Positions 17,602 through 24,530 of a stretch of 58,372 bases of DNA are shown one piece after another. Source of the DNA: Thermotogota bacterium (GTDB taxonomy: Bacteria; Thermotogota; Thermotogae; Thermotogales; Fervidobacteriaceae); the NCBI GenBank assembly GCA_030550315.1, contig JAUQPP010000004.1, forward strand, positions 1 to 58,372, written 5' to 3'. The translations under genes were made by a program, and so were the position numbers. Each line of letters opens with the position of its first letter. Position 1 is the first letter of the stretch. Under the pieces are notes generated by a model. It had not been told where the DNA came from, did no database searches, and saw nothing but the letters and a program-made list of their open reading frames with translations.

Positions 17602-18587
17602 TTTTTTTCACCTCTCACTGCTTTTTTTATTCTGTTCATTATCGAGAAAAATATACCGTACTCGGGCAATTTTTCAATCACTGCAGAGCTGTATGGTGAT
17701 TTATCTACATATCTCAGACTTTTGTAGAGATTCTGCGCTATCGTGTACGGTCGTTTTAAGCTACCTATGGTGAGTACATTTCTTGCGTTCTTTAAGAATT
17801 TCTCTTTGGATTCCTCAGTACATAGCACTAGGATATCGGTGTTTGCGAAGTTTGCGAGCTCCTCCGAATTAACAAGTTTCAACGGCTTATCGGGTGCGTA
17901 ATGCCTGTACTTCATCCCGGGTGAAAGAGGCCTGCTGGTTTCCTCGGGATTGAAGACATTAACTTTCCCAAAAAGTTCTTCGAGCTCTTCGATTGTAATG
18001 GGACCAGGACGAAGCACCAAAGGTGTCTCTCCTGTCAAATCCACTATTGTCGATTCTATTCCGAACGCACTTTCACCGCCGTCGATGATACACTCGATTT
18101 TCCCGTTCAGATCCTCGTAAACTGATTCGAACGTAGTTGGACTTGGCTTTCCGGAAAGATTAGCACTCGGTGCTGCAATGGGACCGGCGCACAATGCAAG
18201 TCGTTGGGCTATCGGGTGTGCCGGAAACCGTACTCCAACAGTGTTTAAGCCCCCTGTGACTTCGTTGGGTACGTGTGGACGCTTTCTGAAAACAAAGGTC
18301 ACTGGACCTGGGGTAATTTTCTTAATCACAGGCCAGTACCTTTCATCAACGTAGCACACTTCTTCGAACTGCTCAAGACTACTGACGTGTACAATCAACG
18401 GATTGTCAGCTGGTCTGCCCTTGACTGCGAAGATTTTCCTAACTGCTCCGGGCATGAAAGCGAGTGCACCAAGCCCATAAACTGTCTCGGTTGGAAAGGC
18501 AACAAGCCCACCGTTTTTGAGAATCTTGCATGCTTGAGAGATGTCATCTTTGTAAGGATCGCCAACCTTTAGGATCAACGTTTCCAT
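17598..18587 (-). CDS. tsaC: threonylcarbamoyl-AMP synthase (TsaC/Sua5 type)
   Basis: The 329-residue product has the YrdC domain ([16 protein letters not shown] near residue 30, [30 protein letters not shown]...STIVDLTG) plus the C-terminal Sua5 domain (from about residue 215). It makes the threonylcarbamoyl-AMP used for t6A37 in ANN-decoding tRNAs. The ATG at 18587 overlaps the stop of the upstream phospholipase-D-like gene (TGATG) with GGAG eight bases before it, and is preferred to a TTG at 18602. Confidence 0.93.
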
Positions 18588-19513
18588 CAGTATCCACTCC
18601 AAAGTATCTCAAAGATTTTTTCGTATTTTTTTAACAGCCAAGGATTTTTACTCGTGTAGAGCATCTCAACATTTCGGTGGAATCCGCTCTCAGTGTAGTT
18701 TGTCGAACCGGTTAACAACGTGTCCTCAGTCAAGATGAACTTGTGATGCATCAGCCTGAAGCTGATAATCTTTAATTTCGAGAATCCAAACTTGTAAATC
18801 GGACTTCTTTTAAACCAGCGATCCGTTATAACACGCACATCAAGTCCCTGACTTTCTTTAAACTTCAACGTGGCCATAACTTCCTGGTCAGTTAGCGCGT
18901 ACATGCATACCCATACACGTTTTCTAGCGCTTTGCAAAACACGTAAAACATGATTTTCGACATTGTCAAGTGGTGAAACGGTGAAACCTTGGACCTCTGT
19001 AATTTTACCATGATTCCAAATGTTAAGAAAGAACGTTTTGAATCTTTCACTGTAAGATTGATTGAAAATTAAGATATCGTTAAGTGAGTTTCGCAGACCG
19101 CTAACGCTGAAATTGGCTGAGCCAAATATCACGCCGTGCTCGTTTACCGCAAATTTCACATGATGCAGTCCCTTTTCCGCATCGACTTTACTTGGGATGC
19201 CGAATACCGGTTTTTCCGTAATTACGCGGACGTCCACTCCTTGAGCTCTTAATTCCCTTAGCGCATCGATTATCTCCGGATGGTCAACGTGCAGCGCGGA
19301 GATATAGATAAACTCTCTTGAGGACTGAATAAAGTTCAAAACGATACCCTCGAGGCTGCCGTCCAGTGTGAAGAACACCTGTGGCCCTTGCGAGTACAGG
19401 TGAGATGTTATACTGAATATAATGAAAGTAACGGGAAGGATTGTAAGAATTATCAAAATCTTTGTGGTCGTAGCGGGATGTGATTTCATGTTGTCCTTCG
19501 ATTCATCCTTCAA
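18587..19513 (-). CDS. membrane-anchored phospholipase D-like protein
   Basis: The 308-residue product has one N-terminal membrane helix (residues about 19-41) and two HKD-type motifs: HHVKFAVNEHGVIFGSANFS and MHHKFILTEDTLLTGSTNYT. Both halves are needed for one active site in this superfamily of phosphodiesterases, nucleases and lipid synthases. The helix followed by the catalytic domain suggests action outside the membrane. The substrate is unknown. It overlaps the upstream ABC permease gene by 11 bases and tsaC by three, so it is locked into this operon. Confidence 0.85.
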   Translation of the reverse strand: MKDESKDNMKSHPATTTKILIILTILPVTFIIFSITSHLYSQGPQVFFTLDGSLEGIVLNFIQSSREFIYISALHVDHPEIIDALRELRAQGVDVRVITEKPVFGIPSKVDAEKGLHHVKFAVNEHGVIFGSANFSVSGLRNSLNDILIFNQSYSERFKTFFLNIWNHGKITEVQGFTVSPLDNVENHVLRVLQSARKRVWVCMYALTDQEVMATLKFKESQGLDVRVITDRWFKRSPIYKFGFSKLKIISFRLMHHKFILTEDTLLTGSTNYTESGFHRNVEMLYTSKNPWLLKKYEKIFEILWSGY

Positions 19514-20624
19514 ATTTGTGAAATTTTTTCATACCTGTGATAACGACGGAAATGGAAATCAATAAGTAAACCAAAGGTACCAGATAATGATTGTTCGCGA
19601 TACTGTTAAGCCCCATCACCTTTCTCACCGAATCAACCGTGTAGGTGATTGGTAAAAAGCGTGCGACGACTTGGACAAAGGACGGAATTTGTTTGAGCGG
19701 GAAGTAGAAACCACCAGCGAACATCTGAACTTGGAAAAATATTTGCTCAAAAGCTACAATGGCCGATGAACGGTTTTCGAAAACCAGAACGGCGAGCGTT
19801 AAGAATGTCAGTACCAACGCGGAGATTAGCGAGTTAAATATTAAACTTGGCAGGTAAGAGACAACATCCACACCCTTTAGCCAAGCAACGAATGTCAGAA
19901 TGGAAATCCCGAGCACAAGGCTTGTCAAATTTACGATAGCCACGAAGAGGTAAATCTTGAGTAAGTTAAACGGACTAACGGAAAGACGTTTAATCATCTT
20001 TCTTCTGTTCAGCCAAAGCATGTCGTTCATGAAGCCAAACAGGTAAACTGAAAGCCAAGCCATACCAACAACACCGGGGAAGATGAAATTGTTGTAATCA
20101 ACTCGACGGGTTGAAAGATTGTGGATCACCATCTCAACCCGATCTTGCACATCTAACGTATCGAGAATACCTCTGACCATTTCAAACGCAAGTTTTGAAC
20201 CATCCCGAACGGGAATGTAGTGTACCTCTACCGTGACTGGCTTGAAAAACTTTGTGCGCCTAAGTAGCAAAGCGCGTGAGTAAATAGCATCGAATCCTTC
20301 AGGAAGTACTACAAGAACATCAAAAGTCTCTCTTTCGAGAGCTTTTAAGTATTCCTTGATTTTTTCCTTTTTGCTATATGGGAAAAATTTTGGGCTGATT
20401 TGTTGGATTCCGCTGAATGCCCGTTCGAGAATTTCACTTTCCCCAATTATCGCGACCTTAACGGTAACATTTTGTTCGACGTTGCCGAAGATAGAGGTCA
20501 GAATTAAAAAGAGGATGGTTGGAAATACCACAAGCCAGAAGATCGCTTCTTTGGATCTTAAAAAGAGTTGTTTGTACAATCCATCGAGTACAACTAAATC
20601 ACGTCCGAACCAAACTTTTGGCAT
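19503..20624 (-). CDS. ABC-2 type transporter permease
   Basis: The 373-residue protein has an N-terminal membrane helix (FWLVVFPTILFLILTSIFG), a large extracytoplasmic domain (to about residue 180) and five or more C-terminal helices, the layout of ABC-2 export permeases of the YhaP/DrrB/LinY kind. It pairs with the ATPase encoded just upstream and probably with the second permease at 21612. The cargo is unknown. AGGAGGAATCTC lies before the ATG. Confidence 0.85.
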   Translation of the reverse strand: MPKVWFGRDLVVLDGLYKQLFLRSKEAIFWLVVFPTILFLILTSIFGNVEQNVTVKVAIIGESEILERAFSGIQQISPKFFPYSKKEKIKEYLKALERETFDVLVVLPEGFDAIYSRALLLRRTKFFKPVTVEVHYIPVRDGSKLAFEMVRGILDTLDVQDRVEMVIHNLSTRRVDYNNFIFPGVVGMAWLSVYLFGFMNDMLWLNRRKMIKRLSVSPFNLLKIYLFVAIVNLTSLVLGISILTFVAWLKGVDVVSYLPSLIFNSLISALVLTFLTLAVLVFENRSSAIVAFEQIFFQVQMFAGGFYFPLKQIPSFVQVVARFLPITYTVDSVRKVMGLNSIANNHYLVPLVYLLISISVVITGMKKFHKFEG

Positions 20625-20664
20625 GAGATTCCTCCTTAGATTTTTTCTTCCTGGATTTCCACAC

Positions 20665-21543
20665 CTAGTCTATTCTTCTACCTGTTAGCTTGAGAAAGAC
20701 GTCCTCCAAAGTAGGGTGTCTGACGATAAAGTTCTCAACACCTACATCCAGTAATCTTTTGATAGCTCCCGGCGCATCCGGGGTGCTTATAATTGCGACG
20801 TCGCCGGTTACTACTGTTTCTTCAAACAAATGCGCGTGTGTTGCAGGGAACTCGATAACCGCGTTTAAGCCGGATGAGGTGATAAGTTCCTGAGGACTTC
20901 CCCAAGCGATTATTTTTCCGCTATCCATGATGTAAACCATATCCGAGAGTTGATGGGCTTCATCCATGTAGTGTGTGGTCAGTATGATTGATTTTCCGAG
21001 AGACTTAAAATGCTTGATAACATCCCAGAGATGATGTCTGGCATGTGGGTCCAAACCGACCGTGGGTTCATCGAGTAACACGAGTTCCGGATCGTTAACA
21101 AACGCAAGAGCAACGGCTAGACGTTGTTTCTGCCCTCCCGATAAATGCCGCACACGTTTTTTCAGACTCTCCTCCAAATCGAACATTGTGATAATTTCGT
21201 TCAGCGGCAAAGAACGATTGTAGAGTGAGGAGTAAAGTTTCAGGGTTTCTAAGACGGTTAGTTCTTCGAAGAAGAAGTTCTCTTGAAAGCAAACACCTAG
21301 CCGTTCCTTCACCTCATTGGTAATGGTATTGAATGTTCCAAAGTATTCGATGGTACCGTGATCTGGTGTTCTCAATCCCTCAATGATTTCTATCGTTGTC
21401 GTCTTACCTGCACCGTTTGGTCCAAGTATTGAGACTAATTGTCCTTTCTCAACAATGAATGATACCCCATCTACGGCTTTGATACTGCCATAATATTTCC
21501 TAAGATTTTCGACGCGAAGTACAGTTCGAAGGTTTTTTCTCAT
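20665..21543 (-). CDS. ABC transporter ATP-binding protein
   Basis: This 292-residue ATPase has Walker A GPNGAGKTTT, the Q-loop CFQENFFF, signature LSGGQKQRLAVAL, Walker B LVLLDEPTVGLDP and the switch His (LTTHYMDEA). The GLDPHARHHLW and HYMDEAHQLSDMVYIMD features and the C-terminal extension fit the DrrA/CcmA/NatA-like export subfamily. It lies between the two ABC-2 permease genes, so the complex may be a heterodimeric exporter. Confidence 0.92.
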   Translation of the reverse strand: MRKNLRTVLRVENLRKYYGSIKAVDGVSFIVEKGQLVSILGPNGAGKTTTIEIIEGLRTPDHGTIEYFGTFNTITNEVKERLGVCFQENFFFEELTVLETLKLYSSLYNRSLPLNEIITMFDLEESLKKRVRHLSGGQKQRLAVALAFVNDPELVLLDEPTVGLDPHARHHLWDVIKHFKSLGKSIILTTHYMDEAHQLSDMVYIMDSGKIIAWGSPQELITSSGLNAVIEFPATHAHLFEETVVTGDVAIISTPDAPGAIKRLLDVGVENFIVRHPTLEDVFLKLTGRRID

Positions 21544-21611
21544 GCGTAACGAATCCTCCCTTTCCGTTTCCAGAGGGTTGTTGCGTGAATCTTATGTCCA
21601 TAAAACTTATC

Positions 21612-22634
21612 TTAAGCCGTGTCGCTCATCTGCAAGAATTTGCGTGTTGCTAGCCCTGTCATCATTGCCCCAAAACTGATGAAAGCAATACATATGAGTA
21701 AGAAATGACTCCAATTGACCGTTTCGATACCGTAAATCTTTTGGAGTAGTAAGTGAACGTACCTTGGAGGTGTTAAATATGTTACAACCCTAAGGTAGCT
21801 TGGTAATATGCTCACTGGAAAGTAGACACCTGAAAAAAATATGAATATTGTGAAAACTAACTGTGACAGAGATGGTGCAGCTTTTTTGAAGAGTAATGAA
21901 AGTAGGATCCCTAAAGCAAGGTTGATCATAATTGCCGCAATCACAACTAGAAGGTAAGCCCACAGCGTATTCAACGGGACGAACAAGTTTTCACCAAACA
22001 GTATTAACGAGAGTAGAACATTTAGCGCTGAAGAAAGCAATCCCGTAATTACTTGGGCACTCCCCACTCCCAAGGCAAGTCTTAGTGGGTCGATAGGGGT
22101 TACGCTGAAGCGTTTAAACAAACCGTAGCGAACATAGTCGGAGTATATTCTCACACCAGCATTCAAACCTATGGATAAAAACGATATAGTAATTACACCG
22201 AGTATGGTGTACTTTAACTCGGATATTGAATGTCCGATATTTAATTTATGCTCTCTAACCTCTACAACCTTTTTTTCAGACTTTGCACTCGCATAAGCAA
22301 GTCTAAAGAATTCGAACTCACCCTGTGCAAGGTCAATAGGACTCTTCACGTAAACATCTATCCGGTTGTTGATAGCAACGATTACTACATCGTACTTTAA
22401 ATTTTTTACTTCGTCTTTGGAAGGTACGTTGGCCAGTCGAACGAAATTTGCTCCCACCTTAACGTTTACATCGGAATAGAGGGCTGTTGTTGGTTTTTGG
22501 GCTCCGCCTTTTCCGAAAATTGAGCCGAAAAGTATCAGAAAAATGACAGGAAGAATAATGTTCATAAAGAAAACAAACCTGTCACGGAAGTTTATGAGTA
22601 AGAAGCTAAGTACCAGCCTTAATGTCGATTTCAG
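21612..22634 (-). CDS. ABC-2 type transporter permease (probable CTG start)
   Basis: The protein has one N-terminal helix (FVFFMNIILPVIFLILFGSIFG), an extracytoplasmic domain and about five C-terminal helices, like the permease at 19503. The start is unusual. In-frame ATGs at 22697 and 22685 have no ribosome site and fall only about 5-17 bases after the predicted transcription start, whereas GGAGGT (22641-22646) sits six bases before a CTG at 22632-22634. I therefore give CTG as the likely start, with ATG 22697 as the alternative. It is the first gene of the long minus-strand run. Confidence 0.8.
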   Translation of the reverse strand: MKSTLRLVLSFLLINFRDRFVFFMNIILPVIFLILFGSIFGKGGAQKPTTALYSDVNVKVGANFVRLANVPSKDEVKNLKYDVVIVAINNRIDVYVKSPIDLAQGEFEFFRLAYASAKSEKKVVEVREHKLNIGHSISELKYTILGVITISFLSIGLNAGVRIYSDYVRYGLFKRFSVTPIDPLRLALGVGSAQVITGLLSSALNVLLSLILFGENLFVPLNTLWAYLLVVIAAIMINLALGILLSLLFKKAAPSLSQLVFTIFIFFSGVYFPVSILPSYLRVVTYLTPPRYVHLLLQKIYGIETVNWSHFLLICIAFISFGAMMTGLATRKFLQMSDTA

Positions 22635-22708
22635 AGTTTCACCTCCGAAGATAACGCACTCGTAGGGCGATTCCAACGTTCCCATACTATGGTTCACTTT
22701 ACGTTACT

Positions 22709-22744: not shown

Positions 22745-22772
22745 CAAAGGCCGGGGAAAATCCGGCCATTTT
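22745..22772 (-). terminator. intrinsic terminator of the padR/NifX-like operon
   Basis: GGCCGG (22749-22754) and CCGGCC (22762-22767) form a stem with a seven-base loop. On the minus strand it is followed by TTTGTTTTTTG, a proper T-run. Confidence 0.85.
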
Positions 22773-22815: not shown

Positions 22816-23292
22816 TTAAATCTTTCTAACGGTGACGTCCTTGAGTGCTCCGGTCATGAACTGTGCGATGGCATTGGCCACACTTGTTCCCAGTCGGACT
22901 AGATACACTCCTATCTTTTTATTCTTCAGTTCTTTGAACATGTGTGGGCCAACTCTAACTGCGATCACTCCATCCACGTTTCCAATAGTAGTGAACACCT
23001 CATCGTGCCCATGTCCGTGGCCTACTTCATGACCACGCCCGTACACATGTCCATGGTGGTGCCCATTTCCAAGTCCCACATAACGACCAAGGGCATTATC
23101 ATCGGTGTGAAACTTTCCAGCCCTACCTTCTATTTGATACCCGCGTCTATGAGAGTGAAGGTTTTCAACCAATTTCCTTGTTTTCTCCTTACCGTCTTCG
23201 ATCTCAGCTATAACGAAGTACTTAGCCTTTCCAAAATGTGGTGCCACTGTTGTTCCATCGTCCGTTGGTATCGCGATCGTAACCTTCCTCAT
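22816..23292 (-). CDS. NifX/NifB-type cofactor-binding protein with His-rich insert
   Basis: The 158-residue protein has the dinitrogenase iron-molybdenum cofactor-biosynthesis fold (IAIPTDDGTTVAPHFGKAKYF at the start; VDGVIAVRVGPHMFKELKNKKIGVYLV, then TSVANAIAQFMTG). A histidine/glycine-rich insert (about residues 73-97, with GHHHGH and GHGHGHDE) splits the domain and is well suited to bind metal. Nitrogenase genes are not seen, so the protein probably handles an iron-sulfur or other metal species. It follows the PadR regulator by 17 bases and shares its promoter and terminator. Confidence 0.85.
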   Translation of the reverse strand: MRKVTIAIPTDDGTTVAPHFGKAKYFVIAEIEDGKEKTRKLVENLHSHRRGYQIEGRAGKFHTDDNALGRYVGLGNGHHHGHVYGRGHEVGHGHGHDEVFTTIGNVDGVIAVRVGPHMFKELKNKKIGVYLVRLGTSVANAIAQFMTGALKDVTVRKI

Positions 23293-23309
23293 ATCCTCAA
23301 ACCTCCTTT

Positions 23310-23717
23310 TTATGTTCTTCCAAAACCCTCGTTCGTATTTTGGTTCGAATGCAGGAACTTTTCAAAGTAATCTTTTAACCTTCCGATGAACTGCACCATC
23401 TCTTCAAAGAGTTTCTCACCTTCAGATGTTAACCGGTAAATCTTCCTTAGCCCTCCATCTCCCGCCTCAACGGTGTAAGTTAAAAACCCCTGAGCCTCTA
23501 ACTTTCTCAACACACCGTAAACCACACTTGGATCGTGTGGGAATGGATAATAATCAACTCTCGAAAGGTGTTCAACAAGCTCGTATCCGTGCATGGGCTG
23601 GTCCTTTAGCATCTTCAACAGAACCGCGACCAAAAAATCTCCTGTTGTAAACCCCGTTTCTTCACACCGATGCAAACTACCTACAGTACCGTGATGACAA
23701 CCGCACCTGCGGCGCAT
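23310..23717 (-). CDS. PadR-family transcriptional regulator
   Basis: The 135-residue protein carries the PadR winged-helix domain (FLVAVLLKMLKDQPMHGYELVEHLSR...PSVVYGVLRKLEAQGFLTY...RKIYRLTSEGEKLF) and a short C-terminal helix for dimer formation. Its first 20 residues are unusual for the family: MRRRCGCHHGTVGSLHRCEE has three Cys and three His and could bind metal. GAGGTG precedes the ATG. The neighbour is a His-rich metal-binding-type protein, and a 12-base palindrome lies within this gene's promoter, so metal-responsive autoregulation is a reasonable inference. Confidence 0.9.
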   Translation of the reverse strand: MRRRCGCHHGTVGSLHRCEETGFTTGDFLVAVLLKMLKDQPMHGYELVEHLSRVDYYPFPHDPSVVYGVLRKLEAQGFLTYTVEAGDGGLRKIYRLTSEGEKLFEEMVQFIGRLKDYFEKFLHSNQNTNEGFGRT

Positions 23718-23772
23718 TAAATCACCTCTTCTTTTTTTCTTTCATCCATCTACTTTTTTCATCGCAATATTA

Positions 23773-23801
23773 ATTATAAATCATTAATGATAATATGTCA
23801 A
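23773..23801 (-). promoter_or_regulatory. consensus promoter of padR with palindromic operator in the spacer
   Basis: Minus-strand TTGACA (23796-23801), exactly 17 bases, then TATAAT (23773-23778): a perfect sigma-70-type consensus. The spacer contains the 12-base palindrome ATCATTAATGAT (23780-23791), a likely repressor site, probably for PadR itself. The rest of the 384-base gap between padR and hsp20 (23802-23994) is AT-rich and shows no further feature that I can support. Confidence 0.8.
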
Positions 23802-23994
23802 TATTCCTTGAAGGTAGTGTGTTTAAGGGCTAAAAGGTTGTTGAAGCGTCTATCGGGAAACTCTGATGGTCGAAAAACGTAAAAAGAGTATTTGGCAATC
23901 AAATATTACGAGTGATTAACATTTTTAAATCTTTTAAATTACGCAATTTAATAAACTTATTAGTTGTCAAATAGCGAAATTACCGGATTTTGAA

Positions 23995-24021
23995 TTAGCA
24001 CTCTTGACAAAAAAGTGATAA
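23995..24021 (+). promoter_or_regulatory. CIRCE-like operator (HrcA site) upstream of hsp20
   Basis: TTAGCACTC, nine bases, AAGTGATAA. The left arm is identical to the CIRCE consensus, the right arm matches seven of nine positions, and the spacing is exact. It covers the -35 box of the hsp20 promoter, the position expected for repression by HrcA. Confidence 0.7.
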
Positions 24022-24031
24022 CAAGTATAAT
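24004..24031 (+). promoter_or_regulatory. hsp20 promoter
   Basis: TTGACA (24004-24009), 16-base spacer, TATAAT (24026-24031): both boxes are perfect consensus. The leader before the ATG is about 64 bases. Confidence 0.85.
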
Positions 24032-24101: not shown

Positions 24102-24530
24102 ATGTTGGCAAGAAGAACGGACTTGTTTGAACCATTCATGGAACTCCAGAGGGAGATCGACAAACTCTTCAGTGATTTTATGAAACCATTCAGGATGGAT
24201 GTTGAATTTCTTCCAAGGGTTGATGCTTACGAGACGGAGGACAAGGTCGTACTTGAAGTTGAACTACCTGGTGTTAAAAAGGATGATCTAAAAGTCACCG
24301 TTGAAGACGGAGTTTTGAAGATTTGCGGCGAAAAGAAGAGTGAGCGCGAAGAGAAAAACAGAAACTACAGGCTTGTCGAAAGAAGCTATGGTAAGTTTGA
24401 AAGGTCCTTCTTGTTACCGGATTACGTGGACGTGAAAAACATCTCTGCGAAATACGTAGACGGAGTTCTAATCCTTGAACTACCGAAGAAGAGGGAAGAA
24501 AAACCAGCTCTAGAGATAAAGATCGAGTAA
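24102..24530 (+). CDS. Hsp20/alpha-crystallin family small heat-shock protein
   Basis: This 142-residue cytoplasmic chaperone holds unfolded proteins in large oligomers. The alpha-crystallin domain runs from about residue 40 to 130 (VDAYETEDKVVLEVELPGVKKDDLKVTVEDGVLKICGEK, then YGKFERSFLLPDYVD and a VDGVLILELPK ending), with a short tail bearing a PALEIKIE element like the usual I-x-I motif. GGGAGGTGAT precedes the ATG. It is a single-gene unit with its own consensus promoter, CIRCE-like operator and strong terminator. Confidence 0.95.
   Translation: MLARRTDLFEPFMELQREIDKLFSDFMKPFRMDVEFLPRVDAYETEDKVVLEVELPGVKKDDLKVTVEDGVLKICGEKKSEREEKNRNYRLVERSYGKFERSFLLPDYVDVKNISAKYVDGVLILELPKKREEKPALEIKIE

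Follow-up and report, generated by a model that had tools for sequence, protein, structure and literature searches.

The PadR family of transcriptional regulators includes the metal-binding Rv3488 as well as drug-sensing members, such as LmrR, that control export genes. In E. coli and Klebsiella, NfeR (YqjI), a PF03551 protein in MG1655, is described as a nickel-dependent repressor (PMC7981267, PMC9508795) that acts on a metal-homeostasis neighbor and is relieved under excess nickel (PMC7981267). Proteins with the PF02579 domain typified by NifX are portrayed in PMC5524996 as widespread outside nitrogen fixers and of mostly unknown role, with NifB, NifX, NafY and IssA named there as binders of metal clusters, and IssA (SipA, PF2025; IPR003731/PF02579) of Pyrococcus furiosus provides a precedent for Fe/S storage (PMC5524996). 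A response to metals in PadR proteins and the binding of metal clusters by NifX domains thus both have precedents; the pairing of padR with a NifX-like gene, together with the tail, the insert and the promoter-operator plan reported below, was not found among the matches listed in the open-access literature, PMC3149612, which uses both terms, aside.

The window, by which we denote the whole stretch of DNA analyzed here (58,372 nucleotides, from a heat-loving member of the Thermotogota), belongs to a genome of 1.75 Mb in 106 contigs (98.6% complete). It encodes, on the - strand and behind a single promoter, a PadR protein and a NifX-like protein whose genes are separated by a gap of 17 bp and which constitute the sole over-cut-off matches to PF03551 and PF02579, one each, in their own genome. 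The locus comprises the following features.

23310..23717, - strand: padR, 135 aa, a Cys/His tail (residues 1-23) plus a PadR winged helix (PF03551, 5.9e-14, residues 33-105)
23649..23717, - strand: the tail-coding part of padR, MRRRCGCHHGTVGSLHRCEETGF, from the alignment of seven PadRs
22816..23292, - strand: NifX-like gene, 158 aa (PF02579, 1.1e-14), its domain carrying a His-rich insert
22984..23148, - strand: coding part of the His-rich insert, about residues 49-103, from the alignment with MTH1175 (1eo1)
23796..23801, - strand: -35 element TTGACA, read from the sequence
23773..23778, - strand: -10 element TATAAT, read from the sequence
23780..23791, no strand: putative operator copy B, ATCATTAATGAT, an exact palindrome inside the promoter spacer, following motif ATCAnTAnTGAT
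23763..23774, no strand: putative operator copy C, ATTAATATTGCG, 7/10, overlapping the end of the -10 element, the second copy 17 bp off
23797..23808, no strand: putative operator copy A, AGGAATATTGAC, 7/10, overlapping the -35 element and weak taken alone
22749..22767, - strand: terminator-like hairpin with a T run, 3' of the NifX-like gene, weak

The hairpin at 22749..22767 is graded as weak on the basis of the five terminator-like sites found in the region, against 4.9 expected from shuffles.

The regulator scores 52.3 bits against PF03551 (cut-off 27). In a single-sequence monomer model, its core is made up of helices and strands arranged as a winged helix, followed after the wing by a predicted C-terminal dimerization helix (98-126) in which confidence drops toward the end, and residues 1-23, with pLDDT below 50, are apparently unfolded. 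Like NfeR, the protein presents a Cys/His-rich N-terminal extension ahead of its PadR core, and BLASTP aligns the two PF03551 proteins at 36% identity over residues 32-106 of the window PadR. NfeR differs in its length (207 aa vs 135 aa), in the longer extension, with 7 Cys and 13 His in its first 70 residues, and in its divergent neighbor, nfeF, a ferric-chelate reductase. BLASTP similarity is significant for residues 32-106 only, and homology to NfeR was not established past the PadR core, either in the tail or in the long C-terminal part; by analogy, the window PadR may work like NfeR, yet it is not classed as NfeR. An earlier note on this DNA, made from the sequence alone, had placed metal sensing outside the usual scope of PadR proteins, a view that the description of NfeR as a nickel-dependent PadR repressor in PMC7981267 and PMC9508795 does not support.

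The NifX-like protein scores 54.9 bits against PF02579 (cut-off 26.3), the match being broken into two by the insert. It contains 13 His and 0 Cys, and its insert includes both the GHHHGH and the GHGHGHDE strings read by the earlier note. Residues 4-48 and 104-153 have counterparts in MTH1175 (1eo1), which bridges these segments with 15 residues vs about 55 in the window protein, whose single-sequence structure model (mean pLDDT 36.5) was of no use. As with IssA in the account given by PMC5524996, a NifX-like domain is joined here to a low-complexity region, and a storage or sink role would fit. In IssA, however, the extension is C-terminal and rich in Gly, aromatic and cationic residues, whereas in the window protein it is an internal His-rich insert without Cys, and the chain ends a few residues past the PF02579 domain, with no IssA-type Gly/aromatic/cationic C-terminal tail.

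We searched 61 genomes with the PadR sequence and 26 with the NifX-like protein. PadR matches starting at residue 1 were obtained in one genome of the window's genus, g1 (G001), and in five genomes of genus g2 (G002, G009, G012, G016 and G017), and in the same six a NifX gene with a His-rich insert lies directly behind padR; with the window included, the pair is present in 7/11 g1/g2 genomes. Each pair-bearing genome harbors one over-cut-off NifX gene, the His-rich one, and the g2 genomes G006, G015, G018 (81% complete) and G019 (60% complete) yielded no close PadR and no over-cut-off NifX. ABC exporter genes lie downstream of the pair in g1 and glutamine synthetase lies upstream in 5/5 g2 loci, the padR-NifX pair being all that the g1 and g2 loci have in common; no nif genes were recognized among the neighbors read. 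In other phyla, a scan of genome contigs returned 26 loci that mostly matched the PadR core, while viral contigs gave no match and plasmids gave 9 records, none with 80% query coverage.

All three cysteines of the window PadR (residues 5, 7 and 18) fall in the tail, and His 8, 9 and 16 also lie within the first 20 residues, as the earlier note had counted. Cys makes up 0.49% and His 2.3% of the residues of 11 neighboring proteins; at these frequencies, the chance of at least three Cys in 20 residues is 1.3e-4 and that of at least three His is 0.010. Alignment of the seven PadRs, window included, revealed that R2, R3, C5, C7, H16 and C18 are invariant and that H9 is present in 6/7, so that the Cys/His N terminus for which a check in related genomes had been proposed is recovered there. 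His8 is not conserved, RR[RK]C is retained in 7/7 tails, and the loop between the conserved residues varies in both length and sequence. This conserved, ligand-like set of residues marks what is probably a metal-binding tail. In the corresponding NifX-like proteins, the insert is His-rich in 7/7, with a spacing that is unconserved save for H-x-HGH-[DE] at the insert end, and Cys is absent from 6/7.

The padR promoter, TTGACA-17-TATAAT on the - strand, matches the consensus at 12/12 positions and lies ahead of both padR and the NifX-like gene, and its spacer contains the exact palindrome ATCATTAATGAT at 23780-23791; the shared perfect sigma-70 promoter and the 12-base spacer palindrome of the earlier note are thereby confirmed. 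Exact 12-bp palindromes begin at 17 sites in the 58,372 bases, which sets the expectation at no more than about 0.005 per 17-bp spacer. The palindrome can be further defined as the middle, and sole exact, member of three motif copies spaced 17 bp, of which A and C match 7/10 fixed positions. Its proposed conservation in related genomes was borne out in part: exactness is found in the window only, the relatives retaining just the ATCA...TGAT arms, and these arms and a second copy are found in all seven promoters. The best copy of motif ATCAnTAnTGAT matches 8-10 of 10 positions in 7/7 padR promoters, and also in genome G004, and a second operator copy, with 7-10 positions matched, sits exactly 17 bp off in 7/7. 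Summed over eight promoters (the seven plus G004), offset 17 attained a score of 64, where offsets 12-40 averaged 31 (sd 8.4). G009 retains the array, and its promoter has shifted one repeat further on, with a -35 element of TTGATT that makes it less than perfect.

With up to 3 mismatches allowed, the 29-bp double site is present in 12/25 genomes scanned. In 6/7 pair-bearing genomes it occurs solely at the padR promoter, with 0 matches in each for the reversed-pattern control, and the double site of G012 falls outside the 3-mismatch limit. Genome G008 presented three double-site places vs two for the reversed-pattern control, and at the same threshold none were found in the g5 genomes G005, G011 and G014. 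The exact motif ATCAnTAnTGAT occurs at 2 further places in the window's own genome. These comparisons support binding of the PadR at its own strong promoter as the best-supported step, with the predicted operator and promoter themselves well supported. Two extra double operator-like sites, identical to each other and with 3 mismatches, were observed at G007:C14:7405-7433 and G013:C22:1165-1193.

In a survey of 103 genomes across the phylum, the PadR matched at E <= 1e-9 in 73, at 90 places. We read 89 of these (G027:C2:143857-144126 being left out); of the 90 open reading frames scored, a duplicate locus and two fragments were dropped to reach a set of 87 PadRs. Tail starts were taken from the longest frame, and a PadR was counted as linked when a PF02579 gene lay on its strand no more than 1.5 kb away. 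The results identify 38/87 PadRs as linked to NifX. A perfect TTGACA-16/17-TATAAT promoter precedes 20/21 padR-first padR-NifX operons, vs 1/17 NifX-first operons and 4/49 unlinked padRs, on a background of 33 perfect promoters per 995 kb of strand (survey operons counted, except the window's). Of the four perfect promoters at unlinked padRs, three (G028, G034 and G038) precede padRs of family f2 whose tails contain Cys and His. Other families hold other spacer palindromes, namely ACATATGT in three f5/f7 operons and TCAATATTGA or TCACTAGTGA in 3/5 f9 operons; the conserved plan is thus that of a strong promoter enclosing a repressor-like site. The operator motif in the padR promoter itself (7/7) and the perfect promoters of padR-first operons also lend sequence-level support to the earlier proposal of an autoregulated padR-NifX unit.

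The CxCxH...HxC tail is found in 7/87 PadRs of the phylum, all from g1 or g2 and all seven with a NifX neighbor; the potential counterexample named by the earlier note, such a tail on a PadR lacking that neighbor, was not encountered in the phylum. Short basic Gly-rich tails are common among these PadRs, and other tails with at least three Cys occur in G030 and G038, neither with a NifX neighbor. We also asked whether Cys in the tail might mark NifX linkage in general, and set this idea aside as weak (25/38 linked vs 18/49 unlinked, p 0.0096; 18/31 vs 18/49, Fisher p 0.07, without the seven g1/g2 rows). In f7 loci a Fer4 protein is encoded between padR and NifX. An ArsP_1-type permease (PF03773) follows padR-NifX in G046 (L098:2372-2872), and like frames were seen by eye in other f5 loci.

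The operator array extends beyond the pair. In G004, the same array and a perfect promoter precede a padR-DUF5320-DUF5320-NifX operon, which shares its operator, its promoter and the PadR and NifX families with the window unit but differs from it in the Arg/Gly tail of the PadR, in a NifX without His-rich insert and in the added DUF5320 genes. Since the same operator precedes a padR whose Arg/Gly tail has neither Cys nor His, the Cys/His set would not be required for DNA recognition, and, the G004 operator being unchanged without it, the case for its role is one of conservation. Within family f1, DUF5320 is present in 9/9 genomes of genera g3, g4 and g5 vs 0/11 of g1 and g2, and the operator array also precedes DUF5320 genes in the g3 genomes G003, G007, G010 and G013. 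Operator-bearing DUF5320 genes adjoin ferritin and desulfoferrodoxin at one g3 locus (L240), and at another (L241) they are found close to genes for a peroxiredoxin (AhpC/TSA) and a Fur-family protein. The DUF5320 pairs found under the padR operator in g3 (L239, L240, L241 and L242) are rich in Arg, Gly and aromatic residues, like a free-standing IssA tail.

A different arrangement is found in the g3 genome G013, where a His-rich NifX gene lies directly upstream of sufC and sufB (NCBIfam TIGR01978 and TIGR01980; L215:601-3299, - strand). The encoded protein shares 34% identity with the window NifX-like protein over 153 columns, with its His-rich stretch at the equivalent place, and the promoter carries a weak 17-bp double site (16/20) that was equalled by 1/2000 shuffles. 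The G013 unit resembles that of the window in its His-rich NifX and its weak double site, but padR is not adjacent and Fe-S assembly genes stand behind, an arrangement that supports a link of this His-rich NifX type to Fe-S cluster assembly. The close PadR of G013 has an Arg/Gly tail.

Together, these results lead us to favor, with some confidence, a reading of padR-nifX as a self-repressed metal-handling unit, probably for iron or a metal-sulfide, that opens when the tail binds its ligand. The putative operon, its candidate operators, the predicted promoter and the conserved tail residues are supported by the comparisons above. From these we infer that control is repressive in sign: PadR dimers would occupy the 17-bp-spaced operators over the -35 element, the spacer and the -10 element, and so hold an intrinsically strong promoter shut. 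An excess metal ion, metal-sulfide or Fe-S species would be captured by the flexible CxCxH...HxC tail, whereupon the repressor would be released from DNA. The freed promoter would yield abundant NifX-domain protein, its His-rich insert presumably binding that ligand so as to buffer or store it, and derepression would also raise PadR and close the loop.

A metal or metal-sulfide ligand is suggested by the tail residues, by the ligands that PMC5524996 attributes to PF02579 proteins and by the nickel relief described for NfeR (PMC7981267, PMC9508795). The settings of relatives make us lean toward iron or sulfide, with the suf genes in G013, ferritin and desulfoferrodoxin at L240, the Fur-family gene and peroxiredoxin at L241 and the Fer4 protein of f7 loci all favoring iron; Ni, Zn, Co or Cu would suit as well, the sole argument for them being the general chemistry of His-rich stretches. 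Because its position next to suf genes speaks for an iron-sulfur role of the His-rich protein, our assessment of the self-repressed metal-handling unit is unchanged by G013, although the combination there of a His-rich NifX with an Arg/Gly-tailed PadR indicates that the link between sink and tail is not a strict one. The ligand that opens the PadR promoter would tell what the NifX protein holds, the modular-tail switch offering a direct handle, and the combination of compact repressor and strong promoter could be turned into a metal biosensor for thermophiles.

The presence of all three PadR cysteines in the tail could also denote a redox or sulfide/persulfide sensor, in which they would form a disulfide, a persulfide or an oxygen-labile cluster and respond to oxidants or sulfur, not to metal level. 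The g3 operator before DUF5320 genes near ferritin/desulfoferrodoxin (L240) and peroxiredoxin/Fur-family genes (L241) would be in line with such a sensor, but an invariant H16 and a nearly invariant H9 fit a metal better than thiol chemistry, as does a partner enriched in His and, in 6/7 NifX-like proteins, devoid of Cys, and we regard this explanation as unlikely. The frequency of short basic Gly-rich tails in the phylum's PadRs, the RR[RK]C of 7/7 tails, the identity of the operator with or without a Cys/His tail and the Arg/Gly tail accompanying the His-rich NifX of G013 all speak for a tail that aids structure or DNA binding, basic tails lying in the minor groove and tight Zn merely folding that of the window, with a small molecule as the effector. 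This proposal leaves unexplained the tendency of Cys/His tails to pair with Cys/His-rich partners, and we deem it somewhat less likely still.

It has also to be considered that the PadR might chiefly control the downstream ABC-2 export cluster (19503-22697), with the NifX-like gene as a passenger, given that an ABC-2 permease, an ATPase and a permease come next on the same strand and that G001 is alike by frame order. The ABC ATPase pattern was, however, matched in the G001 stretch and in 0/5 g2 stretches (14 kb), the weak terminator-like hairpin intervenes, and the interval from the NifX-like gene to the ABC genes has no operator match with up to one mismatch. The exporter was rejected on these grounds as the main PadR target, which leaves this alternative a very slim chance. 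The region 18587-22697 (- strand) holds an ABC-2 permease, an ATPase, a second ABC-2 permease and a phospholipase-D-like frame in series, in a frame order repeated in G001 (L046), and the nearest NCBIfam model of the ATPase is DrrA, with a score under its cut-off.

To compare tails with their partners, we counted Cys plus His in each tail and in whichever 25-residue segment of its NifX or DUF5320-like partner has most of them. The two are correlated across loci (rho 0.79, 42 loci) and genera (0.73, 17 genera), and remain so both without g1/g2 (0.67, 35 loci; 0.63, 15 genera, p 0.012) and without g1/g2 and G030 (0.64, 34 loci; 0.54, 14 genera, p 0.046). In controls on a larger row set, which includes partnerless PadRs, other open reading frames of the locus gave values that were not significant (-0.08, 52 rows; 0.24, 17 genera), and the PadR core gave 0.26 (p 0.063) and 0.36 (p 0.15). 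Because the test was devised post hoc, the rule for DUF5320-like partners is ad hoc and the rows are related, the correlation is to be taken as a lead only.

It is conceivable, though we put it forward tentatively, that in this phylum the unfolded N-terminal PadR tail tends to copy the low-complexity chemistry of the protein under its control, both binding one inorganic ligand, and that adaptation to a new ligand would swap both low-complexity parts and keep operator and promoter. The pairings tend to join Cys/His tails with His-rich NifX, Arg/Gly tails with DUF5320 and a Cys-rich tail with a Cys-rich peptide. Mismatches in G013 and f9 reduce the odds of this proposal. The idea that a Cys/His tail and a His-rich NifX always occur together is ruled out by the Arg/Gly-tailed PadR and His-rich NifX of G013 and, again, by the f9 genomes G090 and G092, where His-rich NifX C-termini stand beside one-Cys tails. 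If tail and sink truly co-vary, ligand specificity would be readable from sequence. The PadR of G030, a genome without a PF02579 match, has a CGCC (CGCCH) tail. Beside it lies a gene for an 81-aa peptide (L209:2188-2433, - strand) that begins MCCCGCCCFHCCCC / MCCCGCCCFHCCCCHCCCCKHHGRGHH and has no Pfam match; this Cys-rich peptide is a possible thiol-rich metal sink accompanied by its sensor.

Divergently from padR, an Hsp20 gene (24102-24530, + strand) is preceded by a second perfect TTGACA/TATAAT promoter, with a 16-bp spacer, at 24004-24031, and the window scan found no operator match with up to one mismatch at that promoter. The best solved relatives are TM0937 for the PadR and 1m4y for the HslV encoded nearby, both of which we take to be Thermotoga maritima proteins.
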